Source: Ruminococcus sp. (GTDB taxonomy: Bacteria > Bacillota > Clostridia > Oscillospirales > Ruminococcaceae). Taken from it: a stretch of 64,000 nucleotides of DNA. The position numbers and the translations under genes are program-made. Location: positions 59,974 to 123,973 of the forward strand of contig JAFWSI010000012.1 of the NCBI GenBank assembly GCA_017519415.1, in the 5' to 3' direction. Under the pieces are notes generated by a model. The model made no database searches. It was not told where the DNA came from and saw nothing but the letters and a program-made list of their open reading frames with translations. Below are positions 750 to 60,552 of this stretch, in pieces; positions within the stretch are counted from its first letter, which is position 1; every line of letters starts with the position of its first letter.

Positions 750-1787
750 TCAGAATGCCAGCAGTGTAATTATTCCCAGAATTCCGAAAATAATGCCGCA
801 GAGCGAAAAAGTTATCACTATCTTATACTCGCTGAAGCCGCTCATCTCAAAGTGATGATGGATAGGAGTCATTTTGAAGATACGTCTGCCCTCTCCGTAC
901 TTTTTCCTGGTATACTTGAAGTAGAGCACCTGCATCATAACGGAAAGCGCTTCTATGATGTATACTATGGCAACGAGAAGTATCAGCAGGTGCTTGTGGA
1001 GCACAAGTCCCACGCCCGTTACCGCTGCGCCGAGGAACATTGAACCCGTATCACCCATGAAGCACTTTGCGGGGTTAAGGTTCCAGAGAAGGAAGCCGAG
1101 ACATCCGCCTGCCAGCGCCATGGTGAAGCAGGTCATCTCATTCTTTTTCAGTATAGCACAGCATACCGTGAATATCAGCATGGCAACGAAGGTCACCGAG
1201 CCGCAGAGGCCGTCTACTCCGTCCGTAAGATTCACGGCGTTGGTGAGATAGATTATCAGGCCTATCATCAGTATATAGTAGAATATTCCCAGTGAAGGAC
1301 TTCTCCAGAAGCCCAGGTCTATCCTTGTGGAATTATCCCCGAAGCAGCGCACCGCAATGAGGAAGCCCACGGAGAAAACGAGCTGCATGGCGATTTTCTG
1401 CCACGGCGTCAGCCCGTCATTGTTCTTTCTTGCCACCTTGGTATAATCGTCGATAAATCCTATAAGCCCGAAGGAAGCCGAGTAAACTATACAGCTCAGG
1501 ACAAGATAGAACGCCTTGAAGCTCTCCTTGTCCGTGGTATCGATGCCCGTTTTCCACCTGTACAGCCAGTAGCCCGCTATCGCCGCTATAACCGTCGATA
1601 TTATGAACATGAAACCGCCCATTGTGGGAGTCCCCTGCTTTTTCGCGTGCCACTTCGGTCCGTCCTCAGTCTTTATCGGCTGACCGAACTTTATCCTGTG
1701 CAGGAAGGGTACAAGGAATATACCCGAAACTCCCGCTATCACAAACGATAAAAGCGCTGTTATAAGATTTATTACCCAGAAAGACAT
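750..1787 (-). CDS. mraY: Phospho-N-acetylmuramoyl-pentapeptide transferase MraY
   Basis: Transfers phospho-MurNAc-pentapeptide from UDP to undecaprenyl phosphate on the inner membrane face, giving lipid I. The 345-residue polytopic protein has the expected family signatures: an early TEDGPKWHAKKQGTPTMGG block, GLIGFIDDYTK with the Asp pair, NAVNLTDGVDGL, MGDTGSMFLG and the C-terminal PIHHHFE histidine motif. Length matches the family (about 320-360). It starts 26 bp after the murE stop and precedes ftsW by 34 bp, so the three are probably co-transcribed. Nothing looks damaged. Confidence 0.96.
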   Translation of the reverse strand: MSFWVINLITALLSFVIAGVSGIFLVPFLHRIKFGQPIKTEDGPKWHAKKQGTPTMGGFMFIISTVIAAIAGYWLYRWKTGIDTTDKESFKAFYLVLSCIVYSASFGLIGFIDDYTKVARKNNDGLTPWQKIAMQLVFSVGFLIAVRCFGDNSTRIDLGFWRSPSLGIFYYILMIGLIIYLTNAVNLTDGVDGLCGSVTFVAMLIFTVCCAILKKNEMTCFTMALAGGCLGFLLWNLNPAKCFMGDTGSMFLGAAVTGVGLVLHKHLLILLVAIVYIIEALSVMMQVLYFKYTRKKYGEGRRIFKMTPIHHHFEMSGFSEYKIVITFSLCGIIFGILGIITLLAF

Positions 1788-1813: not shown

Positions 1814-3253
1814 TTATTTATCGAGAAGCTTAAGGCCCTCTGCAACTATTTCTCTCTCGTCGAAATGGATATGCTCCATGCCCGCAAGTATCTGATAGTC
1901 CTCATGGCCTTTGCCCGCAAGAACTATTATATCACCTTTTTCAGCAATTTTCAAGGCATGAAATATAGCTTCTTTCCTGTCCACCACAACATCGTAGTCA
2001 GCAGACCCGCCTTCAAGTCCCGCAAGTATGTCGTCAATTATAGCCTCGGGAGCTTCATTTCTCGGATTATCCGAGGTAACTATGAGCTTATCCGCATATT
2101 TTGCAGCAGCCTGCGCCATTTTCGGACGCTTTGCCGCATCGCGGTTGCCGCCGCAGCCGAAGAGGCATATAAGGCGGTTTTCGGTGTATTCCCTGACGCT
2201 TTTCAGGATATTCTCAACTGCGTCTGGAGTATGGGCATAGTCGCATATAACGGTGAAGTCGCGTCCCGTGGGAATAACCTCGCAGCGTCCCTTGACGCCC
2301 TCGTACTCCTCAACGGCGGGGATTATGCTGTCGATAGCGAGCCCAGCCTCAAGACAGGCGGCAATGGCCGCCGTGATGTTTGAAACATTGAAGAATCCCG
2401 GAATCTTTGTTTTTATCAGGTGTGATTTGTCGCCGTTGCAGAACCAGAAGCTGGAGCCCGTGGACTTTATCTTTATGCCGTCCGCATAGAAGTCCGCATT
2501 CTCCTTCACGCTGAAGCTCTGCTTTTTGCAGCCTATCTCTCCGAAAAGCCGTCTGCCGTAATCGTCGTCAACGTTGATTATGGCGCTGTCGCATATATCA
2601 AAGAGCATTTTCTTGGCCTGGTAGTATTCCTCCATGTCCTTATGATAGTCAAGGTGATCCTGAGTCAGATTGGTGAATACCGCGGCGTCAAACCATGAGG
2701 CTCCTATCCTGTACTGGCAGAGGCCGAAGGAGGATACCTCCATTACCACATATTCGCAGCCTGCGTCCACCATTTTTGCCAGCAGCTCCATGAAATCATA
2801 GGCCATTGGCGTTGTATTGTCGGTATGAAGTATCTCGTCCCCTATCTCATTCTGGATAGTGCCCACAAGGCCTGTTTTATGGCCGTTCTTCATGAGGATA
2901 TGCTTGATAACGTTGGTTATGGTGGTCTTGCCGTTGGTACCCGTAACGCCTATGAGCTTCATTCTGCGCTCGGGGTGACCGAACCATGCGGAACATATCT
3001 GTCCGTAGAGCTTACGGGAATTCTTCGTAAGTATCTGTCTGTCGCCCAGTCCGAGATCGCGCTCGCAGACTACAGCCGCGGCGCCCTTTTCCAGCATCTC
3101 CGCAGCAGCGGTGTGGCCGTCGAAGCTTCCGCCCTTTACACAGACAAAGAGGCTCCCCTCCGTAACTTTACGCGTATCATCGGTAACGGAGCTTATCTCT
3201 GCGTCACCGATAGCCGTAACGGCATTGTTTTCAATAAGATCTCTTAGTTTCAT
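1814..3253 (-). CDS. murE: UDP-MurNAc-L-Ala-D-Glu:meso-diaminopimelate ligase MurE
   Basis: ATP-dependent ligase adding the third stem-peptide residue. The 479-residue protein has the three Mur-ligase domains: the N-terminal UDP-binding region (SSVTDDTRKV block), the central P-loop TGTNGKTT near residues 105-111, and a C-terminal domain with DNPR near residue 400. DNPR is the established signature for meso-diaminopimelate selection; L-Lys enzymes differ at this site, so diaminopimelate-type peptidoglycan is inferred. It lies 51 bp after the PASTA PBP in the dcw cluster, as in Bacillus and clostridia. Confidence 0.95.
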   Translation of the reverse strand: MKLRDLIENNAVTAIGDAEISSVTDDTRKVTEGSLFVCVKGGSFDGHTAAAEMLEKGAAAVVCERDLGLGDRQILTKNSRKLYGQICSAWFGHPERRMKLIGVTGTNGKTTITNVIKHILMKNGHKTGLVGTIQNEIGDEILHTDNTTPMAYDFMELLAKMVDAGCEYVVMEVSSFGLCQYRIGASWFDAAVFTNLTQDHLDYHKDMEEYYQAKKMLFDICDSAIINVDDDYGRRLFGEIGCKKQSFSVKENADFYADGIKIKSTGSSFWFCNGDKSHLIKTKIPGFFNVSNITAAIAACLEAGLAIDSIIPAVEEYEGVKGRCEVIPTGRDFTVICDYAHTPDAVENILKSVREYTENRLICLFGCGGNRDAAKRPKMAQAAAKYADKLIVTSDNPRNEAPEAIIDDILAGLEGGSADYDVVVDRKEAIFHALKIAEKGDIIVLAGKGHEDYQILAGMEHIHFDEREIVAEGLKLLDK

Positions 3254-8600: not shown

Positions 8601-9887
8601 TCAATCATATGTATATGTAAGACTGAATTTCGAGGATTTGAGTCCCATCCTCTGGGAGAAGGGATAGCCCTTCGCTGTGGTCTGTCCGTCGATGATTACC
8701 TCCGTGACATAGCCCGTCTCCTCGGATACAACAGGCTGTATCCAGTTGCCGGGATCGTCCGAAAGCTTGACGTGGTAAAGTGTTTCAAGCTTCTTCTTTA
8801 CCGTTTCGGCGTCCATATATGTTACCGTACCCCAGTGAGGATCAAAAGCGGCGTCATAATCGCTGGGCACAGACCTCAGGTAAGGATAATCGGCATAGAA
8901 TACCTCAAAGCAGTTCGCCGAGCAGCCACCGCTGGACGCGGAGAACACTGTGAGGGCGTAATTATCGTCATAGAACAGAGCCTCGCCAAGCACCTCCTGG
9001 CAGGCGTCTATAACTATCTGCGGAGGATTGGGCTTTCCTCTCAGGTCGCTGGAGTCGTCGCCGTTATACTTTATATATGTATATACCGCAACTGCCTGAG
9101 CTTTGATAGCTTCATAGGAGAAGCTGCCGCCCACCTCTCTGTTTACTATCTCGGATACTACCTTGAGGGTATCGCCCGCAGGCTCGTGAGCAATGGTGAG
9201 CTCCTCCTCGTCGGTCATTTCCGTATTCATCAGGTATGTTCCGGGATAATAGTGGAACAGTATATCCTGATATGTCCAGCCTGCATATGCGGCATAGAAG
9301 TTGGCGCCGTTCTGGCTCATGCCGACTCCGTGACCCCAGCCGTAGGTAACGAACGCAAATTGTCCCGGCTCGGCATTTATACTGGGATCGGGCTGTGACG
9401 AGGGAATATCTCCCACGGCAGCTCCCGAAGTCTTAAGCTCTACAGCCGTCGGGGTCTTGCTGCGGCTCCTTGCCGCATTCTTTGAAAGGGTCGGCGTAGC
9501 CTTTCGGAGAGCGCTTCTTTTCTTTGCTATCGCCTCCTCAAGAGCCTTGCGTTCCTCCTCGGACAATCCCGCGAAACGGTCTACCGGCTCGCCCACCTTC
9601 GCCATCTCCGGAGTGGCGGTCTCATAGCTGATGAGAGTAAGGCTCGGATCGTATTCGCTTATGTCAGCCTTTTCCCAGTCTTCGGGCATTGTCTGCTCCG
9701 CAGGCTCATCAGCGACAGCCGTTGAAGCTTCCGTTGTCTCTGTCTCCGCCTCTCCCGAAGCGGAAGTCAGTACGGAAGTCTCCGCGGTAGTCTCCGTATC
9801 CGTGACCGCAACTGCGGTAGTGCCCGAAAAGACGAGAACTCCCGAAGCAGCCGCAGCCGCGCATTTTATGATTTTTTTCGTATACAT
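8601..9887 (-). CDS. Exported SpoIID/LytB-domain protein with circularly permuted blocks
   Basis: A 428-residue exported protein: signal peptide (about 1-28), a Thr/Ala/Glu-rich low-complexity region to about 170, then SpoIID-family blocks. SpoIID proteins are peptidoglycan-remodelling enzymes (lytic transglycosylase or amidase enhancer). Here GWGHGVGMSQNGA and ILFHYYPGT (about 183-220) come before VNREVGGSFSYEAIKAQAVA (about 245) and PYLRSV (about 335), and the protein ends with the block GYPFSQRMGLKSSKF. In SpoIID the GHGVGMSQ block normally comes last, right after that R-LGLRS-F block. The order is therefore a clean circular permutation. It is the last gene of the thiI-pncC-srtB-srtB series, 29 bp after the sortase. 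No LPXTG-like sorting signal is visible. Confidence 0.85.
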   Translation of the reverse strand: MYTKKIIKCAAAAASGVLVFSGTTAVAVTDTETTAETSVLTSASGEAETETTEASTAVADEPAEQTMPEDWEKADISEYDPSLTLISYETATPEMAKVGEPVDRFAGLSEEERKALEEAIAKKRSALRKATPTLSKNAARSRSKTPTAVELKTSGAAVGDIPSSQPDPSINAEPGQFAFVTYGWGHGVGMSQNGANFYAAYAGWTYQDILFHYYPGTYLMNTEMTDEEELTIAHEPAGDTLKVVSEIVNREVGGSFSYEAIKAQAVAVYTYIKYNGDDSSDLRGKPNPPQIVIDACQEVLGEALFYDDNYALTVFSASSGGCSANCFEVFYADYPYLRSVPSDYDAAFDPHWGTVTYMDAETVKKKLETLYHVKLSDDPGNWIQPVVSEETGYVTEVIIDGQTTAKGYPFSQRMGLKSSKFSLTYTYD

Positions 9888-9916
9888 AACGATCTCCTTA
9901 ATAACAAACAGTGGGC

Positions 9917-10846
9917 TTATTCCGCAGGCTTTTCTTCATGTGCCTTGTTATAAGCCTCCGTGTGCTGTACAGTCGAAAGGTCTCCTGCGACCTCTCCTTC
10001 CCTCAGCAGTCTTGCAACTACTATGAATCTCGTATTATCATCGTCGTTATAGCATGTCGAGAGGGTCAGGAGCTTATCTCCGAACCTCATATCAACTCCC
10101 GTATCGAGCATCTGCTTTTTGCGGCACTGGTCGATATAGAAGTTGAAGTCCTCCTCGTTATCGATCTGCTCCATGTTCCAGTAGTGAAAATCGGTATCGT
10201 CGTAGTTTCCCGGCGTAACAAGGTAAGAGAATATGACATAGTCGTAATCCCTGTAGTTCGAGCTCACCTTTATAAAAGCATTGGAGCCGTAAAACGCCGA
10301 GTTGAGATGATATTTTCTCAGGTCGCCCATCATGGTGCCGTCATACATTGCGTGGCCGTAAAGTATGAGGTTCTCGGTATGCTCAGACTCGTCGCTGCCG
10401 AATACATTGCGGTAATCGGCAAAGACAGTGCCGTAAAAGACCTGATTTCTGTAAAGGTCGTGATCGAGGTAATACTCGTTGGAGCCATAGCCCGCAGGCC
10501 CGTAAAACGGATCGCCTGCCTTTATATCACCGGGATCGAGAACTATTGGGTTGTGTATGACGGTATTGTCAAGGCTGAGCCAGCCCGCAATATCCTTGTT
10601 GTATCGCAAAAGCGACATGGTCCTCGGAGTATATCCCTCCTCAGAGGGAACGTATCCGTATTTTTTCTCCCAGTCCGACGGGATCTCATAGGAGATCTCC
10701 GTGGGAGCCTCCGTAGTGGTCATGATTATCTCGTTGGGTGTGGGTACCGTATCCCTGCCCCTGCCAAGGGTAAGAGCGAGGACTCCCAGTGCGACAGCAG
10801 CCGCACCTGCGCCCGCCGCCGTTATTATCTTTCCCTTTTTTTCCAT
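9917..10846 (-). CDS. Class B sortase (short form)
   Basis: Membrane-anchored cysteine transpeptidase that attaches surface proteins to peptidoglycan. Of its 309 residues, 5-25 form the N-terminal signal anchor; a Thr/Pro linker is followed by the sortase B fold. Catalytic His lies in LILYGHAM (about 163), Cys in LTLSTC (about 265) and Arg in NTRFIVVARL (about 272). The ATG directly abuts the TAA of the upstream sortase, with AAGGAAG inside that gene, so the pair is translationally coupled. Its substrates are not evident in this window. Confidence 0.92.
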   Translation of the reverse strand: MEKKGKIITAAGAGAAAVALGVLALTLGRGRDTVPTPNEIIMTTTEAPTEISYEIPSDWEKKYGYVPSEEGYTPRTMSLLRYNKDIAGWLSLDNTVIHNPIVLDPGDIKAGDPFYGPAGYGSNEYYLDHDLYRNQVFYGTVFADYRNVFGSDESEHTENLILYGHAMYDGTMMGDLRKYHLNSAFYGSNAFIKVSSNYRDYDYVIFSYLVTPGNYDDTDFHYWNMEQIDNEEDFNFYIDQCRKKQMLDTGVDMRFGDKLLTLSTCYNDDDNTRFIVVARLLREGEVAGDLSTVQHTEAYNKAHEEKPAE

Positions 10847-12631
10847 TTATCGACCATCTTCCTTCTGTGGGCCATAGGGAACGAATTCTCCGTTCGGATC
10901 GTACTTTTCATTTGGCCTTGCCACATAGTAGAGAGAAGGCCATTTTATATTCGGGTTCGGTCTGCTGTTCTGCGTTCCGTATTTCGGTGACTCGCCGTCC
11001 CTTAAACGTCTTGCCATTATGATAAGACGGCCTCTCTCCTCGTCCGCCGCAAGACTGGTATTGCAGGTCGAAAGCGTAAGCAGCGGATCGCCGTACTTCA
11101 CATCGACGTCGTTCAGACGGAGCGACCTCTTCTTCGCCTCGTTGACAAAGTCATAGAATTCATCTTCGTTGGCAAAATCGAGCTTGTTCCAGCAGTCGTA
11201 CCTTGTTTCGGTATCGTCCGAGGCGTCAAGTATGAAGAATGCGAATATTTTATATATGTATTTCTCGTAGTTCGAGCTGAGATATATCAGTGGATGCTCG
11301 CCATAATAGTTCTCGTTCCTCTGATACCACTTGAGGCAGCCGAACATCTGATCATCGTACATATTATGTCCGTAGATCACAAGGTTATCCGAATTCGGAT
11401 ATTTCAGATAGCCGTCCTCGCCCACGTCGTCGAAATGGTTCCTGTAGTCAAGGAAGAGCTCGCCTGCTATATTATCGGTGAGATCGTACTTCTTGTCGAG
11501 GTACTTCTCATTGTTTTCAGCCTGGAGTATGGGGTTGTTTACGGGAGTATCAGGGATACTGATGACGCCCACTATCTCATGGTTCTGATCCCAGAGCTTA
11601 CGTGCGCCGTCCATCATTCCGCCGTAACGTTTCCGTACCTCTCCCTCATCTGTCTTTTCCTCGATGATCTGCGGCTGACGGTCCTCGTAGATCTCATAGA
11701 TCTCCATGATCTCCCGGGTCTTGTGCTTGCTTGTCCACAGGTCGTAGTAATAGCTGAGCACAAGATAGCCGCACACGAATATCGCTATGACCGAGCAGAG
11801 GAAAACTATCTTTCTTATTATCTCAAAGACACTGTCGCCCTTTTCCGGAAACAGTCCTCTCACACGCTTTTTGAAGCTTTTCTTTTTCTTCTTTTTCTTG
11901 GGAGCACCCTCCTCAGCTGCCGTCAGCTTCTCAGCCTCCGCAGCAGGCGCTTCCTCAGCGGGAGCTTCTTCCTCTTCCTCAGCTTCTTCCGCAGCCGCGA
12001 CCGCTTCCGCGACGCTTACTGCCCTGAATACCTGAGTGGTCTCCTTATCCTCGTCCGCTCCGGGCTCCTCGTTTTCGGAGCTGAGCTCTTCATCGCTCCG
12101 CAGAGACTCCTCCTCAGGCTCTGCGCTCTCCTCTTCGGGAACGAGCCCGCCGGCAGCGCTTACGGGAATCTCCTCCGCGCCCGCGTCATTATCCTCAGTC
12201 ACATCGGCAGGCTCCTCGGTGAAGTCCATGACATCCTCAGTGATACCGCTCGGAACCTCCGAAAAATCCTCGGTTATGCTCTCTGCGATCTCGCTGAGCT
12301 CCTCCTGTGCGGGAGTCCCGAGGCCCGAAATTATATCCGATATTTCGGCGTCGGCAGCAGCCTTTTCGGCAGCAGCCGTCTCCTCTGCGGCAAGCCTTTC
12401 CTCTTCAGCCTTCGCAACGGCTATGGCTTCATCGAGCTCGTCGAGTATATCCTCTGCGGAGGAGCTTTTAGGCTCTTCGGTCGGTCTGGTATTCTCCGAG
12501 TCGGCGTCTGCCCTGTTCTCATATGTAGTCGGAGCGACCTCAGCCTCACTGTGTATCGCTCTTCTTATAGCTTTGATCTTTTCAGCTCTGCGCTGAGCCT
12601 CCGGGTCTGAGCCGCTGATCTTATCGTTCAT
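10847..12631 (-). CDS. Class B sortase with long acidic cytoplasmic N-terminus
   Basis: A 594-residue sortase. The C-terminal part (about 330-570) is a class B sortase with catalytic His in NLVIYGHNM (about 420), Cys in LLTLSTC (about 523) and Arg in the RGRLIIMARRL strand. The first about 245 residues are an unusual Glu/Ala/Ser-rich, probably disordered region with predicted cytoplasmic location, ending in a run of lysines (KKKKKKKSFKKR) just before the only transmembrane helix (about 268-290). Sortases normally have only a short cytoplasmic tail. The ATG overlaps the pncC stop (TGATG). The tail could bind a cytoplasmic or membrane partner; this is inference. Confidence 0.9.
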   Translation of the reverse strand: MNDKISGSDPEAQRRAEKIKAIRRAIHSEAEVAPTTYENRADADSENTRPTEEPKSSSAEDILDELDEAIAVAKAEEERLAAEETAAAEKAAADAEISDIISGLGTPAQEELSEIAESITEDFSEVPSGITEDVMDFTEEPADVTEDNDAGAEEIPVSAAGGLVPEEESAEPEEESLRSDEELSSENEEPGADEDKETTQVFRAVSVAEAVAAAEEAEEEEEAPAEEAPAAEAEKLTAAEEGAPKKKKKKKSFKKRVRGLFPEKGDSVFEIIRKIVFLCSVIAIFVCGYLVLSYYYDLWTSKHKTREIMEIYEIYEDRQPQIIEEKTDEGEVRKRYGGMMDGARKLWDQNHEIVGVISIPDTPVNNPILQAENNEKYLDKKYDLTDNIAGELFLDYRNHFDDVGEDGYLKYPNSDNLVIYGHNMYDDQMFGCLKWYQRNENYYGEHPLIYLSSNYEKYIYKIFAFFILDASDDTETRYDCWNKLDFANEDEFYDFVNEAKKRSLRLNDVDVKYGDPLLTLSTCNTSLAADEERGRLIIMARRLRDGESPKYGTQNSRPNPNIKWPSLYYVARPNEKYDPNGEFVPYGPQKEDGR

Positions 12632-35384: not shown

Positions 35385-36725
35385 CTACAAAGCAGAAACG
35401 AGCTTCTTGAAAGCATCGCCGCGCTCCTCGAAGTTTTTGAATATACCGTAGCTTGCCGCCGCAGGCGACATAACGCAGCTCATGCCCTCCGGAGTTATTT
35501 CCGCCGCAAGCCTTACCGCGTCCTCAAGGTGGTCCGCATAGTGAACACGGTTCCTGTCCCTGAAATCGTCCCTTGCCTGTATCATATCGTACACGCGCTT
35601 ACCCGAGGCCTCCATACATATAGCTCTTACGTCAAAGTCCGCCAGGAAGTCCACAAGGGGAGCGTAGTCGATACCTCTGTCCATGCCGCCGATAAGGATA
35701 GTGCCTGCATCGGGAACGCTCTGCACAGCTGAAATTGCCGTAGCACAGGCAGTTGAGATAGAATCGTCGTACCAGCGTATACCGCGGACTGTGTCCACAT
35801 ATTCAAGGCGGTGAGCCAGCGGTGAGAATGTGCAGAGAGCCTTTGTGAAGTCCTCCTCGCGTATGAAAAGTGTGGAGATATAATAGGCCACAGCGATATT
35901 ATAGTGATTGTGAACGCCGAGGAGCTTAACCTTATCGGTTGGGATAACATAGGGCTCCACACAGTGTACCATGCCGTCTTTCACGTAAATATCGGCTTTT
36001 CTGTCCGTATCGGAAACGGTATAGGTGTTCCATGAGATAGGCTCAGCCGGCGCAATAGCGGAGTTTATGAGCAGAACGTCGTTCTCCTGCTGGTGGAGAT
36101 AGATGTTCTTTTTTGCGTTGTAGTAGTTCTCCATAGTGCCGTAGTGGTCAAGGTGCTCCTCATAGAGATTGAGGAATACCGCGTATTTCGGCGAAACCGT
36201 CATATATTCCAGCTGGTGGCAGGAGAGCTCGCAGACAACTAAGGTGTACTCTTGCATGCCCTCGGCAATGTCAAATACGGGTATGCCGATATTCCCTGCG
36301 ATACGGCAGTCCACTCCGCTCTCATGCAGCACATGATAAATGAGGGAGGTGACGGTGCTTTTGCCCTTTGTGCCGGTTATACCGATTATCTGCTCGCGGA
36401 ACACCTCAAAGAACACCTGAGTCTCGCAGGTTATCATGCATTTCAGCTCCGAAAGGTTTTTTTCCAGTACGATGCCGGGGCTTTTGAATACCATGTCGAA
36501 GCGGTCAAGGCACTCCTGATAGTCCTTCCCGCATATAAGCTCAACGCTGTCGGGGAGTCCGTTTTCCTCTCTGTCAACGGGATTGAGATCGGCAACAGCC
36601 AGTGACGACTGTGCGCCGTATTTCTCCAGTATCTTATAGGTTGACCTGCCTTCCCTGCCGAAGCCCAGTATGCATACCGACTTTCCGTCGGTATATTTTC
36701 TTATATATTCGCAGAATCTGTTCAA
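35385..36725 (-). CDS. murD: MurD-family ligase (UDP-MurNAc-L-Ala:glutamate ligase), probable MurD2 type
   Basis: Adds glutamate to UDP-MurNAc-L-Ala. The 446-residue protein has an N-terminal Rossmann GFGREGRSTYK, P-loop ITGTKGKSTVTSLIYH (about 118), VCELSCHQLEYM (usually E-SSFQLE), NLYEEHLDHYG, GGMDRGIDYAPL and SPAAASYGIFKNFEERGDAF (usually SPACASFD). These departures, and the overlap with a MurL-like epimerase gene, suggest the MurD2 type that adds L-Glu rather than D-Glu; ordinary D-Glu MurD is the alternative. The TTG start overlaps the upstream stop (TTGA), with GGAG 8 nt before it. It lies outside the dcw cluster. Confidence 0.85.
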   Translation of the reverse strand: MNRFCEYIRKYTDGKSVCILGFGREGRSTYKILEKYGAQSSLAVADLNPVDREENGLPDSVELICGKDYQECLDRFDMVFKSPGIVLEKNLSELKCMITCETQVFFEVFREQIIGITGTKGKSTVTSLIYHVLHESGVDCRIAGNIGIPVFDIAEGMQEYTLVVCELSCHQLEYMTVSPKYAVFLNLYEEHLDHYGTMENYYNAKKNIYLHQQENDVLLINSAIAPAEPISWNTYTVSDTDRKADIYVKDGMVHCVEPYVIPTDKVKLLGVHNHYNIAVAYYISTLFIREEDFTKALCTFSPLAHRLEYVDTVRGIRWYDDSISTACATAISAVQSVPDAGTILIGGMDRGIDYAPLVDFLADFDVRAICMEASGKRVYDMIQARDDFRDRNRVHYADHLEDAVRLAAEITPEGMSCVMSPAAASYGIFKNFEERGDAFKKLVSAL

Positions 36726-38104
36726 AGCAGACGCTCCATTTCCTTTTTAAGTATAGTCCTGAACCTGTCGGGCAGCAAATTCTGCTCGTTGTACGAGTCG
36801 CAGCACTGTCTGTTCAGCTCATCTGTATTCTCAGGGTGATAGAGACCCCTGTTCTTGTACTCCTCAAAGAGCAGCGGCAGCTTTTCGCCCTTTTCCTCGA
36901 GCCTTCCTATAGCAAGGGATACCGCAAGGTTCACCTCGTCGATACTGCCCACACACTCAAAGGGCTTATGCTCCGACTGTCCGATGAGCTCGGTGAAGAA
37001 GCCCAGCATATCCCTGTCGTTCAGCATATCCTTTCCGAATATCTCCCCGAGCTCGGAAAGGCTCAGGAAGGGAGACAGGATAAGGCATACGAACAGGCAC
37101 TTTGGACACTCTCCGCACCATATATCGGGAGATACCTTGCTGCCAAGATTGCAGCTCCTGAAAACAGGCAGGTATTTCCTGTGGGATACGAACATCTTAG
37201 CTATCTGGAATTCCGCAAGAGGACGCAGGAAGCTGAAATAGTACTGTCCCGTGCGCAGGTACTTCTCCTCATAGCTGTGAAAGTCCTGCTCGAACTCAAA
37301 GCTCTTGGAATACTGATGATTTACGTCCTGACCGGCCACGGTGCTCTCATTTGCGCTGGATTCGTTGGAAAGGACGATATATTCCAGTCCGTTAAGGTAG
37401 GCGGTTATCTCCGCAGAAAAGGCTACAATGGACGAAAAGGGCGTATGACCGTTTATGAAGCCCCTGTTGTTCAGCTCTATCAGAGAGCGGTCGAACCTCC
37501 TCTGAGAAACGATCAGCGCATCCCCGGGAAGTCCCGCTGCCTTTACGGTCTCTGTTATGGAGCGCCTCCTGTTTATGGAGTAGCAGCGGCATTCCATACC
37601 CGCCTGCACAAGAGTTTCCAGCGTAAGTGCGGAATCCTTGCCGCCTCCTATCGGCACAAGGCAGCCCTCCGGCTGACGCTTTGTCTCCTTCAGCGAGCTG
37701 TCGTAGCTCCCTGTCGAGACAATATTAACGAAGCTGTCAAAGTCGGATGATATGCCGTTCACGAAGAAGAGCTCGCCCAGCCCCATGAACCACAGCTTCT
37801 TCCACCACTGCTTCTGCTCCTCGTCCAGCTCGCCGCACTCCGCACGGAATTCGGGAGAACAGGCTGCCTTCCAGTAGCTGACCGCCTCTGCCATTCCAAG
37901 TGAGAAAGCAAGGCGTTCAAAGGTCAGGTCGCCCTTTACGGTAAGACCTGCCGGCTTGCGGAAGCTCCAGCCCGGGTGGAAGTCCGCCAGTCCGCGGATA
38001 GAGAACTCATAGTCTATATCCACGGTATCCTCCGTCTCCTTTATATCATAGGATCTGTAAATAAAAACGGGATATTCCTCCCTGAATTTCTCATAACTGC
38101 TCAT
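36722..38104 (-). CDS. murL: MurL-like UDP-MurNAc-L-Ala-L-Glu epimerase
   Basis: A 460-residue soluble protein matching the MurL family, first shown in Xanthomonas: ATP-dependent epimerisation of the terminal L-Glu of UDP-MurNAc-L-Ala-L-Glu, made by MurD2, to D-Glu. Visible features: a PP-loop-like LVPIGGGKDSALTLETL (about 152-168), a central VLSNESSANESTV block and a Cys motif in IWCGECPKCLFVCL (about 330) typical of the family. It overlaps the murD-type gene by 4 nt. The ATG has GGAGGG upstream. A PP-loop enzyme of other function is the alternative, but the murD overlap favours MurL. Confidence 0.82.
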   Translation of the reverse strand: MSSYEKFREEYPVFIYRSYDIKETEDTVDIDYEFSIRGLADFHPGWSFRKPAGLTVKGDLTFERLAFSLGMAEAVSYWKAACSPEFRAECGELDEEQKQWWKKLWFMGLGELFFVNGISSDFDSFVNIVSTGSYDSSLKETKRQPEGCLVPIGGGKDSALTLETLVQAGMECRCYSINRRRSITETVKAAGLPGDALIVSQRRFDRSLIELNNRGFINGHTPFSSIVAFSAEITAYLNGLEYIVLSNESSANESTVAGQDVNHQYSKSFEFEQDFHSYEEKYLRTGQYYFSFLRPLAEFQIAKMFVSHRKYLPVFRSCNLGSKVSPDIWCGECPKCLFVCLILSPFLSLSELGEIFGKDMLNDRDMLGFFTELIGQSEHKPFECVGSIDEVNLAVSLAIGRLEEKGEKLPLLFEEYKNRGLYHPENTDELNRQCCDSYNEQNLLPDRFRTILKKEMERLL

Positions 38105-38128: not shown

Positions 38129-38509
38129 TTATTTCTTAGGATCAGAGAGCTTTTTGTAATACTCCTTGAGGAGAGCAAAGGTCTCGTCGGAAATATCATG
38201 CTCTATCTTGCAGGCGTCCTCGGCAGCCGTATCGCGGCTCACTCCGAGATACTCGAAAAAGCCTGTGATCACCTTATGACGGTCATATATGCGTTCAGCC
38301 ACCTTTTTCCCTTCTGCCGTCAGTCTGATATGATTATCGCCGTCAACGGTGACAAGTCCCTCGTCCTTCATTTTCTTCAGTATTATCGACACCGTGGGAC
38401 GTGAATAGCCAAGGTAAGAGCAAATGTCTATCGCATGTACATCGGGCTGCTTTTCAGAGAGTATAAGTATAGTCTCAAGGTAGTTTTCAACTGCTTCGGT
38501 AATAGCCAT
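38129..38509 (-). CDS. DtxR/MntR-family metal-dependent repressor
   Basis: A 126-residue regulator with the DtxR winged helix (AIDICSYLGYSRPTVSIILKK, about 28-48; DGDNHIRLTAEG wing) and dimerisation/metal domain (RHKVITGFFEYLGV, DACKIEHDISDETF). The E-x-x-C/H-x-x-x-H-type ligands (DACKIEHDIS) fit manganese- or iron-responsive members; the SH3 domain is absent, as in MntR. It lies 24 bp upstream of murL in the same direction, with no metal transporter nearby, an unexpected pairing. Confidence 0.9.
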   Translation of the reverse strand: MAITEAVENYLETILILSEKQPDVHAIDICSYLGYSRPTVSIILKKMKDEGLVTVDGDNHIRLTAEGKKVAERIYDRHKVITGFFEYLGVSRDTAAEDACKIEHDISDETFALLKEYYKKLSDPKK

Positions 38510-38619: not shown

Positions 38620-40674
38620 TTATATCAGCGGGTGCTTTGTGAAATCCCAGGAAAGCTCGGAGCTGTCCCAGTCCTCGCGGCAGAGCTCCGCACATTCCCT
38701 TACCGTACCGATCACGTCATCACAGTCTTCCGGTAGCGCGGGAAGCGGCAGCCTTGCTATATCTCCGGGGTTCATATTCAGGGTGGGATTGAGTATGCCC
38801 GTCAGCGCCGAAGCCACGTTGCTGTTGAGGAGTCCCAGCAGCAGCCACAGTGTCCTGCCGTCCTCGGGAAAGGCGCTGGTTCCCGCAACGTTGAACATGA
38901 AGCTGTCGTCGAAATACCGCACTGAAAAAGCACCGCTGGTTATCTGCGACCAGCTCACATGAGAGCGGAAATTAAAGGCAAGTCCCTGGGGACGGGAACG
39001 AAGTCTGCCCTTTTCGTCGCGGAAGCTCTTTATCTCCTCGCCGTCGTTCTCCCAGTTTATGAGAAATTCGCGGTTGCCGTACCACCTGCGGTATTCCCCT
39101 CCCTTGTTCAGAGGATACCATTTTTTTCTCTGCTCCCCGGTAAAGGCTGTCTTTTCCTTTGACACCTCGAACCACCTGCGCAGGAAACGCTCGTTGTCGC
39201 CTGTTATCACGCCCTCCCGTACCGGTACAACGTCCCCCAGCTTGACGCCGCCGAAGGCTCTCAGCATGGCTTTTCCAAGCCAGTACGCAGCAGGAGCCGA
39301 AGGAATCCTCAGAAAATCAGCGGTATCCGCTGTGAACCTGTAGGGGCAGTTCGCGGTGCTTATCCCTTCCAGTACCTTCTGACGCTGTATATCCATGTCT
39401 CCCCTGAGCTCCGTAAGTCTCAGATATATGCCCCTGCCGCTTTCTGCCCCCTTTTTCACAGTAAAGGCGCACAGCGGCACCGTTGCATCGCCGAATGCGG
39501 AGTACTCGAAATGTATCAGGGTCTGCAAGCCGCTTTCGGAGTATATCCTGCGCCTTACGCTTTCATAGGACTGAAGAAACAGCCATGTGCTGGGAGTAAG
39601 AAAGCCCATATAGCCGCCGTCCTTCGTCATTTCAAGACAGCGCACCATGAATACGGAGAAGAGATCGGCTCCGTATGCGCCGTATCTCTCTCTCACAAAT
39701 CCCGACAGCTCCTCATTCATGGCAGATCTGCCGAGATAGGGAGGATTTGTTACGACTATGTCGTATTTTCTGTCGAGAAGGCTTCTTATTCTGCCGGCCT
39801 TACCGCTGCGGCTCACTATATCGCCGCTGTTCATAAGGGAACCGACAGAGCTGCTCACTCCCGAAAAATCATAAACATTGGGAGCGGTATAGGCTCCGTA
39901 TCTCGCCGCCTTGATCCTCAGTGCTGTTTCAGCGGCCGCACAGGCACGTTCATCAAGCTCCAGTCCGAAAAGATTCCGGCTGAGTATCTTCTCCGCGGCA
40001 GCAGTATCCGTATATCCGCAAAGACGGTAAAGCTCCATGAACACGTCAAAGGCATACAGCAGCACATTTCCGCCGCCCATGCACGGATCCGTCAGGCTTA
40101 TCTCTTCAGGCAGGACCTTTTCAGACAGCTCCGCTTCGCTGTCAAAGCAGTATTCCCCTGTGCATATATCATAGCCGTGCTCACGGATATACCGCGTAAG
40201 GGTGTTCTGAACCATATACCTCACCACCCATTCAGGCGTGAATATCTGGGTCGCAGCCGCTATCCTGTCAGCGCTGAGCCGCTTGCTGTTCTTCAGGCCT
40301 GCCGCTGTTTCGTTCCTGTCCGGCTCGTTGTAATACTGGTGCAGCCAGCCTATCGTCTCCTCATGCCCGAAAAGCTCACGCGGAAGCGACAGGAGCTCCG
40401 CAGCTGTTCCGCCCTCAGCCAAAAGCTGGGGCGGAAGGGGCAGCTCGCACGCTTTCCTGAATAAACCGCCGTATATTACCGCGAGCTGCCTGCACTTTTC
40501 CGTGAAAAGTGCACTGCGGAGCTCTTCGGGTGCAGACATTATCTCTTCAACGCCTGAATAGTCCGCAACAGCAGCCGCGCCAAGACACATAAAGTACAGG
40601 TACGCCGCTTCTCCGTGCCCGGACAAGGAGCTGCCTGCACGGAGGGCAAATTTTCTCAGACTGGAATGCTCCAC
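38620..40674 (-). CDS. Solitary PglX-like adenine-specific DNA methyltransferase
   Basis: Closest in pattern to PglX, the methyltransferase of BREX phage defence. N-terminal LRKFALRAG and IGWLHQYYNEP, ATQIFTPEWVVRYMVQNTL, motif I DPCMGGGNVLLYAFD (about 196), catalytic NPPYLGRSAMN (about 311), FLTPSTWLFLQSYE and LNPTLNMNPGDIARLPLP all follow PglX order; it ends SSELSWDFTKHPLI. Full PglX proteins continue for about 300 more residues after this WDF-HPL point and total about 1200, so this 684-residue form lacks the C-terminal region. No brxA/B/C, pglZ or brxL is near. GTG start with GGAGG 7 nt upstream. A type IIG-like orphan enzyme is the alternative. Confidence 0.82.
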   Translation of the reverse strand: MEHSSLRKFALRAGSSLSGHGEAAYLYFMCLGAAAVADYSGVEEIMSAPEELRSALFTEKCRQLAVIYGGLFRKACELPLPPQLLAEGGTAAELLSLPRELFGHEETIGWLHQYYNEPDRNETAAGLKNSKRLSADRIAAATQIFTPEWVVRYMVQNTLTRYIREHGYDICTGEYCFDSEAELSEKVLPEEISLTDPCMGGGNVLLYAFDVFMELYRLCGYTDTAAAEKILSRNLFGLELDERACAAAETALRIKAARYGAYTAPNVYDFSGVSSSVGSLMNSGDIVSRSGKAGRIRSLLDRKYDIVVTNPPYLGRSAMNEELSGFVRERYGAYGADLFSVFMVRCLEMTKDGGYMGFLTPSTWLFLQSYESVRRRIYSESGLQTLIHFEYSAFGDATVPLCAFTVKKGAESGRGIYLRLTELRGDMDIQRQKVLEGISTANCPYRFTADTADFLRIPSAPAAYWLGKAMLRAFGGVKLGDVVPVREGVITGDNERFLRRWFEVSKEKTAFTGEQRKKWYPLNKGGEYRRWYGNREFLINWENDGEEIKSFRDEKGRLRSRPQGLAFNFRSHVSWSQITSGAFSVRYFDDSFMFNVAGTSAFPEDGRTLWLLLGLLNSNVASALTGILNPTLNMNPGDIARLPLPALPEDCDDVIGTVRECAELCREDWDSSELSWDFTKHPLI

Positions 40675-59922: not shown

Positions 59923-60552
59923 TTATTTTTTAAAAAAGCCGAACCTCTTTTTCTTCGGAGCAAGACTTTCAAGGAATTTCTCGGTCTCATCCTCCGAAGC
60001 TGCCTTCAGAAGATCATTCACCTTTTCCCTCAGAAGGGCTCCCTTTGAATTGGAGGCATTTGCCTGTATAGCCTCCTCCGTCAGGCTGCCGTGTCTTCCG
60101 GCACCCGCAGGGAACTGCGGAGAAGCTGCGTGGTAAGCCGTTCCCCCATTCATAACAGGCTGAGGTGCCGGATTCATGGGAGCAGCAAACATAGCTACCT
60201 CGTTGATATTTATGAGCCTGTCTGGCATCATTATCATGCATTCCGAATTCTCCGGCGCAAGTGACAGGATATATCCTATACAGTTATTGCAGGGCAGTAA
60301 GGACATCATGTCCTGTGTGCTGATAAGTATGAGCCCTCGGATCACAGTTTCCCCTGCCGCCAGCATATTCTGCACGGCCTCTGCCTCCGCATGGACAGGC
60401 ATATTCATGTCAGAACGGCTTATGCCCGTATATATCCTCCCCGAAGCTGATTCGATGGAGCACACCGTATCGGAAGCGGAAATAAATGCTCCCGATTCAA
60501 TTAAATTTATAGCAGCAGATTGTGCGGCACTTAGTATCGCGTCTGTATTCAT
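59923..60552 (-). CDS. Cytidine-deaminase-fold protein with C-terminal extension
   Basis: A 209-residue protein. The first about 125 residues follow the cytidine deaminase fold with zinc-site motifs MPVHAEAEAV (H-A-E, about 54) and LLPCNNCIGYI (P-C-x-x-C, about 88). The rest is Pro/Ala-rich, then a charged helix (LREKVNDLLKAASEDETEKFLES) and a basic end, KKKRFGFFKK. Zinc ligands and the catalytic Glu are kept, so deamination of some substrate is possible; the tail is unusual for Cdd. It is upstream of, and close to, the GGDEF gene, a likely operon. Confidence 0.78.
   Translation of the reverse strand: MNTDAILSAAQSAAINLIESGAFISASDTVCSIESASGRIYTGISRSDMNMPVHAEAEAVQNMLAAGETVIRGLILISTQDMMSLLPCNNCIGYILSLAPENSECMIMMPDRLININEVAMFAAPMNPAPQPVMNGGTAYHAASPQFPAGAGRHGSLTEEAIQANASNSKGALLREKVNDLLKAASEDETEKFLESLAPKKKRFGFFKK

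Follow-up and report, generated by a model that had tools for sequence, protein, structure and literature searches.

How a Gram-positive gut bacterium obtains the D-glutamate (D-Glu) of its cell wall is the question raised by two overlapping genes, murL and murD, in a 64,000-nucleotide (nt) stretch of DNA from a rumen Ruminococcus (hereafter the window, corresponding to positions 59974–123973 of contig C75 in assembly G000, which is 74.9% complete and 1.7% contaminated). The nearest named relatives of the window are Ruminococcus flavefaciens strains, with MurL identities of up to 83%. Sequence comparisons indicate, with a probability that we put at about 0.9, that the two genes constitute a MurD2-MurL cassette standing in place of murI and a canonical murD. 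MurC would supply UDP-MurNAc-L-Ala as the substrate of MurD, an enzyme of the MurD2 type would attach L-Glu first, and MurL would then flip this residue to the D-Glu of the cell wall. The evidence gathered here comprises the gene pair itself, a residue signature in MurD, alternation of the pair with murI, tree placement and a predicted PP-loop fold for MurL.

A review confines the route to a relatively small number of genera among the Proteobacteria and rare actinobacteria, and states that X. oryzae, one of its bearers, lacks MurI (PMC8788868); orthologues of low similarity have been noted in cyanobacteria as well as in a fungus and an amoeba (PMC5808125). Among the open-access literature matches listed, there was no report of MurL in Clostridia; in the sole paper naming MurL together with Ruminococcus, the matching passage deals with the conversion of L- to D-glutamate by an enzyme that is evidently MurI. 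The locus appears to extend an established pathway to a further phylum, with strong comparative support. The Xanthomonas pair in print is XOO_1320/XOO_1319 of X. oryzae, and the pair compared here is that of X. sacchari (NZ_CP010410.1, SB85_RS19150/19145).

The gene pair of the window consists of the following features:

36722–38104, minus strand: murL, 460 amino acids, ATG start, matching NF041275
35385–36725, minus strand: murD, 446 amino acids, TTG start, matching TIGR01087
36722–36725, minus strand: 4-nt overlap (TTGA) of the murL stop with the TTG start of murD

An initial annotation of this DNA had described a PP-loop protein overlapping a MurD-family ligase by 4 nt. Both open reading frames and their overlap were confirmed, and the motifs PIGGGKDSAL, WCGECPKC, ELSCHQLE and SPAAASYG are all present in the two translations. 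MurL matched the NCBIfam model NF041275 (MurL of Xanthomonadales) with 235.7 bits and an E-value of 7.2e-70, residues 69–398 aligning to positions 64–393 of the 447 in the model, and a Pfam scan of MurL returned no family at E 0.1. MurD scored 316.8 bits against TIGR01087, whose cut-off is 211.95. Named Ruminococcus loci, taken as the best 80 of 313 relatives found, contained both genes in all 80 cases; in 73 of them the same 4-nt overlap resulted from the first in-frame start of MurD (68 TTG, 3 GTG and 2 ATG), and the remaining seven had an earlier candidate start. Such conservation of both genes and of their overlap indicates that the pair is not a chance arrangement.

Conserved residues of MurL were identified in an alignment of 44 proteins that included the X. 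sacchari enzyme. In the PP-loop (GGGKDS), G154, G155, D157 and S158 were invariant and Lys156 was present in 42 of 44 sequences. Cysteines C318, C330, C333 and C336, a candidate zinc-type four-cysteine site, were also invariant, and further invariant residues included G219 H220, N247 E248, N262 H263 Q264, K380 P381 and C384 V385 G386. An AlphaFold2 model built on 20 Ruminococcus MurLs had a mean predicted local distance difference test score of 82.8, with low confidence for residues 319–326. Among 830 Foldseek matches of this model none reached E ≤0.001; the top ones were QatC (9y02, E 0.0021) and QueC (3bl5, E 0.027), each with a probability of 1.00, and the others among the 50 listed had probabilities of at most 0.41. 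The whole-chain template modelling score against QatC was only 0.37–0.40. In an hhalign comparison with E. coli QueC (probability 48%, E 2.8e-5) the PP-loop and the cysteine set aligned. Like MurL, the QueC/QatC PP-loop ATP pyrophosphatases carry a loop of the SGGxDS type and an aligned cysteine set ending in CxxCxxC, whereas the MurL chain extends beyond the QueC-like part on both sides. The predicted fold of MurL thus resembles that of QueC/QatC PP-loop enzymes. PP-loop enzymes of this kind form adenylates. The resemblance would therefore fit the published MurL reaction, in which ATP is converted to AMP, and the adenylation put forward as a hypothesis in the same review, where MurL is said to be without known conserved domains (PMC8788868). 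The substrate, the stereochemistry and the adenylate step we infer by analogy with enzymes already described from Xanthomonas, Micromonospora and Salinispora, for which the adenylate is likewise hypothetical. In the open-access literature searched, no paper contained any two of the terms MurL, QueC and PP-loop. Searches with MurL elsewhere gave little: PADLOC returned zero matches for three MurLs, a PDB sequence search returned two matches (E 0.45–0.51) taken as chance, and none of 12 pattern matches to viral copies was confirmed.

The distribution of MurL and MurI was surveyed in the genus, the family and the class. MurL was found in 49 of the 60 Ruminococcus genomes surveyed; among the 33 with a completeness of 90% or more and contamination of 5% or less, 31 had it. 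MurI was found in four of the 60: G016, G047 and G056, which all lack MurL, and the window assembly, where the single match lies on a contaminant-like contig described below. None of the 48 other MurL-containing genomes had MurI. D-amino acid transaminase (Dat) was above cut-off in none of the 60, with only partial matches of 37–46 bits, so that both searches suggested by the initial annotation came out in line with its proposal. MurD was above cut-off in 53 of the 60 genomes, exactly once in each. The MurDs of G016, G047, G056 and G054 (L118–L121) were of a different, canonical kind (344–349 bits), accompanied by MurI in three cases; in G054, which is 85% complete, no MurI was found. On these sequences, both the MurL and the canonical state occur inside the genus. 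Seven further genomes are without MurL. In G005 (90% complete) a MurD of the MurD2 type opens its contig, so that an adjoining MurL would fall beyond the contig edge; the other six (66–74% complete) showed no MurD above cut-off either.

In the Ruminococcaceae, NF041275 was matched in 19 of 197 genomes (10 of 125 genera) and MurI was above cut-off in 164. With the window assembly set aside, MurI was above cut-off in 0 of 18 MurL-containing versus 163 of 178 MurL-less genomes (Fisher p 8e-17). In the Clostridia, NF041275 was matched in 16 of 391 genomes from nine families and MurI was above cut-off in 329, giving, with the same exclusion, 0 of 15 versus 328 of 375 (p 2e-13); in seven of the 15, MurI is taken to be absent because the genome does not appear in the match list, 16 unmatched genomes not being individually identified. 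Both p-values overstate the association because the genomes are related. As a rough control for this relatedness, seven families (f1, f9, f11, f31, f34, f42 and f55) hold both MurL-containing genomes without MurI above cut-off and MurL-less genomes with MurI, as do, at the genus level, g141 and g214 besides g1. Apart from the window assembly, no genome with both MurL and MurI was found in the genus, family or class scans. As a separate observation, G062 and G183 are near-complete Ruminococcaceae genomes of 1.1–1.2 Mb in which these searches detected neither MurI nor MurL.

If MurD of the window adds L-Glu, it would be expected to resemble MurD2 at the residues governing specificity. In X. oryzae MurD2, exchange of both Glu197 and Arg358 (E. 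coli D182 and K348) switches specificity, whereas single changes at Pro433 and Phe435 (E. coli A414 and L416), which also differ in MurD2, have no effect on it (PMC8788868). E. coli positions 182, 319, 348, 414 and 416 read DKKAL in E. coli itself, EIRPF in X. sacchari MurD2 and EIRAY in the window, where Glu lies in YEEHLDHY and Arg in GGMDRG. The pattern EIRAY was found in 79 of the 80 MurL-linked named loci, the other one showing EIR followed by a gap. All 54 MurD loci of the genus scan shared it (39 distinct sequences, with some genomes counted more than once and including G005, in which MurL was not found). In the family 15 of 16 MurDs had it and one (L161, G224) had DIRAY. The 14 MurDs of the class comprised 8 EIRAY, 2 EIRSY, 2 EIR followed by a gap, 1 DIRAY (L236, G562) and 1 consisting of gaps only (L234, truncated at the edge of its contig and, at 136 amino acids, too short for trees). 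By contrast, the MurDs of MurL-less genomes had Lys at 348 in 39 of 39 cases; at 182, 36 of them had Asn and three had Asp. This set comprised the 30 best-scoring family MurDs, three of them (G183, G186 and G062) from genomes also without a MurI match, together with 5 from genomes lacking both MurL and MurI and 4 from the genus, G005 being left out. Positions 182 and 348 thus separate the two sets, and position 319 does not. Genomes G166 and G245 have MurL and no MurI above cut-off, and their MurDs, which are not linked to murL, were therefore expected to carry Glu and Arg; both read EIRAY. On sequence grounds these two cases come closest to predicting the MurD2 signature independently.

Other candidate marks of MurD2 were rejected. 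Substitution K319T lets E. coli MurD accept L-Glu (PMC8788868), and the window shares Ile at this position with X. sacchari, yet Ile was found in 39 of 39 MurL-less MurDs. The two stretches at which the initial annotation saw the protein depart from its family lend the proposal no support: ELSCHQLE is absent from the specificity residues named in the review's account of them (PMC8788868), and the Tyr of SPAAASYG corresponds to E. coli Leu416, where the matching change F435L left the specificity of X. oryzae MurD2 unaltered. In MurDs of MurL-less relatives this position is mostly Phe. Since single changes at Pro433 and Phe435 are reported to be without effect, these two residues are not defining for MurD2 function.

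Phylogenetic analysis agreed with the residue census. In a tree of 63 MurDs, the 37 from MurL genomes, X. sacchari included, fell on one side of a branch with support of 100/97. A tree of 65 rows, with two very long ones (Sinorhizobium and Nonomuraea) that were dropped for the smaller tree, gave the same main result. Specificity residues and unconstrained tree would both place the window MurD with MurD2, for the tree only tentatively, the alternative placement of X. sacchari having a p-AU (approximately unbiased test) of 0.217.

Linkage of the two genes extends beyond Ruminococcus. MurD adjoins MurL in 17 of 19 loci of the family scan, including three from Ruminococcus itself. It does so too in all 14 further loci of the class scan, of which one is cut by a contig end and one is fused. 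Of 25 clostridial pairs measured, 23 had the MurL stop and the nearest MurD start no more than 23 nt apart, the other two being f55 loci with 70 and 144 nt. In the clostridial genome G277 (L229, 1975–5031) a single frame of 1019 amino acids encompasses MurL (about 6–414) and MurD (about 510–1011). The two unlinked cases, G166 and G245, had no MurD within 13 kb around MurL, and MurD lay on another contig. In a MurL tree made by a quick method the Ruminococcaceae did not form one group: f42 MurL grouped with genera g16, g94 and g99, and f31 MurL with that of g77. The f31–g77 pairing recurred in the MurD tree, at 100/99, and the f42 pairing did not. Recurrence of a pairing in both trees suggests that MurL and MurD moved together. 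A broader picture, which we advance tentatively and at somewhat less than even odds, is that of a mobile replacement of MurI and MurD, widespread but patchy in Clostridia (nine sampled families). In the main cellulolytic genus of the rumen it would have taken the place of the racemase, it would include a fused epimerase-ligase form, and it may have arisen in Clostridia before reaching Xanthomonas; MurL, on this view, would be a PP-loop enzyme of the QueC/QatC type that became a peptide epimerase through carboxylate adenylation. As a side observation, MurL homologues were also found on three Pseudonocardia plasmids (L159, 4812–6212; L160, 4908–6317; L253, 4968–6362), with no annotated MurD nearby and adjoining a large gene (with WD40 repeats in two of the three) and a sigma factor.

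Several observations weigh against a MurD2-MurL cassette replacing murI. The 235.7 bits of the window MurL lie below the curated cut-off of 700 for NF041275, a narrow Xanthomonadales model, and no clostridial MurL of the family and class scans passed it. Ten MurL-containing genomes gave weak racemase-family matches, eight of 18 in the family (E 2.6e-4 to 1.3e-9) and two of 15 in the class (near 1e-8). Some good genomes, for example G062, G183, G130 and G156, lack both MurL and MurI, so that other sources of D-Glu exist and absence of MurI alone is no proof of the MurL route. The MurL-linked MurDs of G224 and G562 have Asp in place of Glu in the Glu/Arg pair, and two of the four changes that the review lists around the Glu site of MurD2 are not reproduced in the window, position 414 remaining Ala and position 416 being Tyr instead of Phe. 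The single Xanthomonas MurD2 sits on a long branch, and a tree with X. sacchari outside the clostridial and Ruminococcaceae set was not rejected (p-AU 0.217). Signature and tree are not independent of each other, since both reflect one clade. Finally, the window genome, 74.9% complete, formally contains a murI above the TIGR00067 cut-off.

Besides the gene pair, the relevant features of the window are:

750–1787, minus strand: mraY, remnant of the division and cell wall (dcw) cluster, TIGR00445, 260.9 bits
from about 724 down, running off the window: ftsW, directly downstream of mraY
1814–3253, minus strand: murE, dcw remnant, NF001126, 572 bits
20159–21586, plus strand: murC, TIGR01082, 406 bits, predicted to make the MurD substrate UDP-MurNAc-L-Ala
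38129–38509, minus strand: DtxR/MntR-type regulator, PF02742/PF01325, with NF008273 below cut-off

Control of murL-murD by manganese or iron through the DtxR-type regulator would be compatible with the cassette and is unlikely on present evidence. The regulator gene lies 24 nt upstream of murL, and a gene of this type occupies the same place in 69 of the 71 Ruminococcus loci that extend far enough to show it. The corresponding counts are only 3 of 18 in the family scan, all three from Ruminococcus, and 0 of 21 in the class scan, with some genomes counted twice. Being upstream only in Ruminococcus, it is best regarded as a neighbour and not a part of the pathway, and the possible metal link raised by the initial annotation carries no weight as evidence. 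The same annotation had pointed to the departure of murD from the dcw cluster while murE, mraY and ftsW remain. This is true of the window: the order is rsmH, a penicillin-binding protein gene, murE and mraY, then ftsW and murG (the last two followed on L259), with no murD between mraY and ftsW/murG. It is not, however, diagnostic of MurD2, as the murD surroundings of two MurI-containing Ruminococcus (L260 and L261; 10–12 kb) are likewise without a mraY or ftsW match. Elsewhere in the window, an Eco57I-type N6 methylase gene (38620–40674) lies upstream of the DtxR-type gene and shares its strand, and a pair of neighbouring genes resembling class B sortases, one or both only slightly or else far below cut-off, stands beside a SpoIID/LytB-domain gene (8601–12631).

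A second alternative has a MurD that is unselective or specific for D-Glu, a MurL that serves as an accessory epimerase, for example on another glycopeptide or a salvage substrate, and D-Glu coming from an unrecognised racemase. The weak racemase-family matches in ten MurL-containing genomes would suit it, as would two precedents: the MurD of Streptococcus mutans carries the Arg and accepts L-Glu to a slight extent (PMC8788868), and DapF can serve as a Glu racemase in Chlamydia (PMC5885031). An accessory role is nevertheless hard to reconcile with the alternation of MurL and MurI, the conserved linkage and fusion of MurL with MurD, and the joint change of both switch residues in nearly all MurDs of MurL genomes, and we consider it very improbable.

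The murI of the window assembly lies on contig C29 (L001, L232; 71.6 kb), after UppS, an 889-amino-acid POTRA (BamA-like) protein and two OmpH genes. These neighbours are outer-membrane biogenesis genes and hence not expected in a Gram-positive Ruminococcus. The C29 MurI matched 81 records of a plasmid collection; among the ten listed, four reached at least 60% identity, all from Bacteroidota, namely Prevotella, Parabacteroides, Phocaeicola and Bacteroides (64–67%), and the fifth match listed had 38%. The G+C content of C29 (12 kb) was 54.9%, versus 50.0% for the window. Codon usage of six C29 genes correlated with that of twelve window genes at 0.72, whereas in 924 six-versus-six splits of the window genes the lowest value was 0.89 and the median 0.96. 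On account of its neighbour genes, plasmid-collection matches, codon usage and G+C content, C29 looks like a contaminating Bacteroidota contig, and the absence of MurI and Dat from the window genome itself holds only given this judgement. That MurI makes D-Glu, MurD being canonical and the PP-loop protein having another function, is in keeping with the above-cut-off TIGR00067 match and with MurD passing the canonical murD model, but this route was rejected as very improbable, given the Bacteroidota-like setting of that murI and the absence of MurI from the 48 other MurL-containing genomes among the 60 Ruminococcus searched.

The proposal that a Gram-positive gut lineage has a MurL-MurD2 pair and adds L-Glu before epimerising it is thus supported, as far as sequence can show, by homology, alternation with MurI, residues and tree. 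The MurL route has been promoted as a narrow-spectrum antibiotic target (PMC8788868). If it runs in Ruminococcus and other Clostridia, inhibitors of MurL or MurD2 could hit fibre-degrading commensals, and lack of murI from their genomes would not imply D-Glu auxotrophy. The QueC-like predicted fold would, in addition, give MurL a mechanistic frame.

Among known systems, close counterparts of the window pair are the MurD2-MurL pair of Xanthomonas and the canonical clostridial MurD with MurI. Canonical clostridial MurD, found with MurI, belongs to the same family and exceeds the TIGR01087 cut-off like the window protein, but differs in having Asn or Asp and Lys at the two switch positions (39 of 39 MurL-less cases) and lies on the other side of the MurD tree. 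The Xanthomonas pair differs in phylum, in lying on the other side of the midpoint-rooted MurL tree, in a MurL with 35% identity over 69% of its length (X. sacchari) and in a Glu-site stretch that reads Pro-Ser-Phe instead of Ala-Ser-Tyr. It shares with the window the order murL then murD, the overlap of the two genes (20 nt in X. sacchari and 4 nt in the window), the PP-loop, the cysteine set and other invariant residues of MurL, Glu and Arg at the positions of E. coli D182 and K348, and the absence of MurI, reported for X. oryzae and found in the other MurL-containing Ruminococcus.

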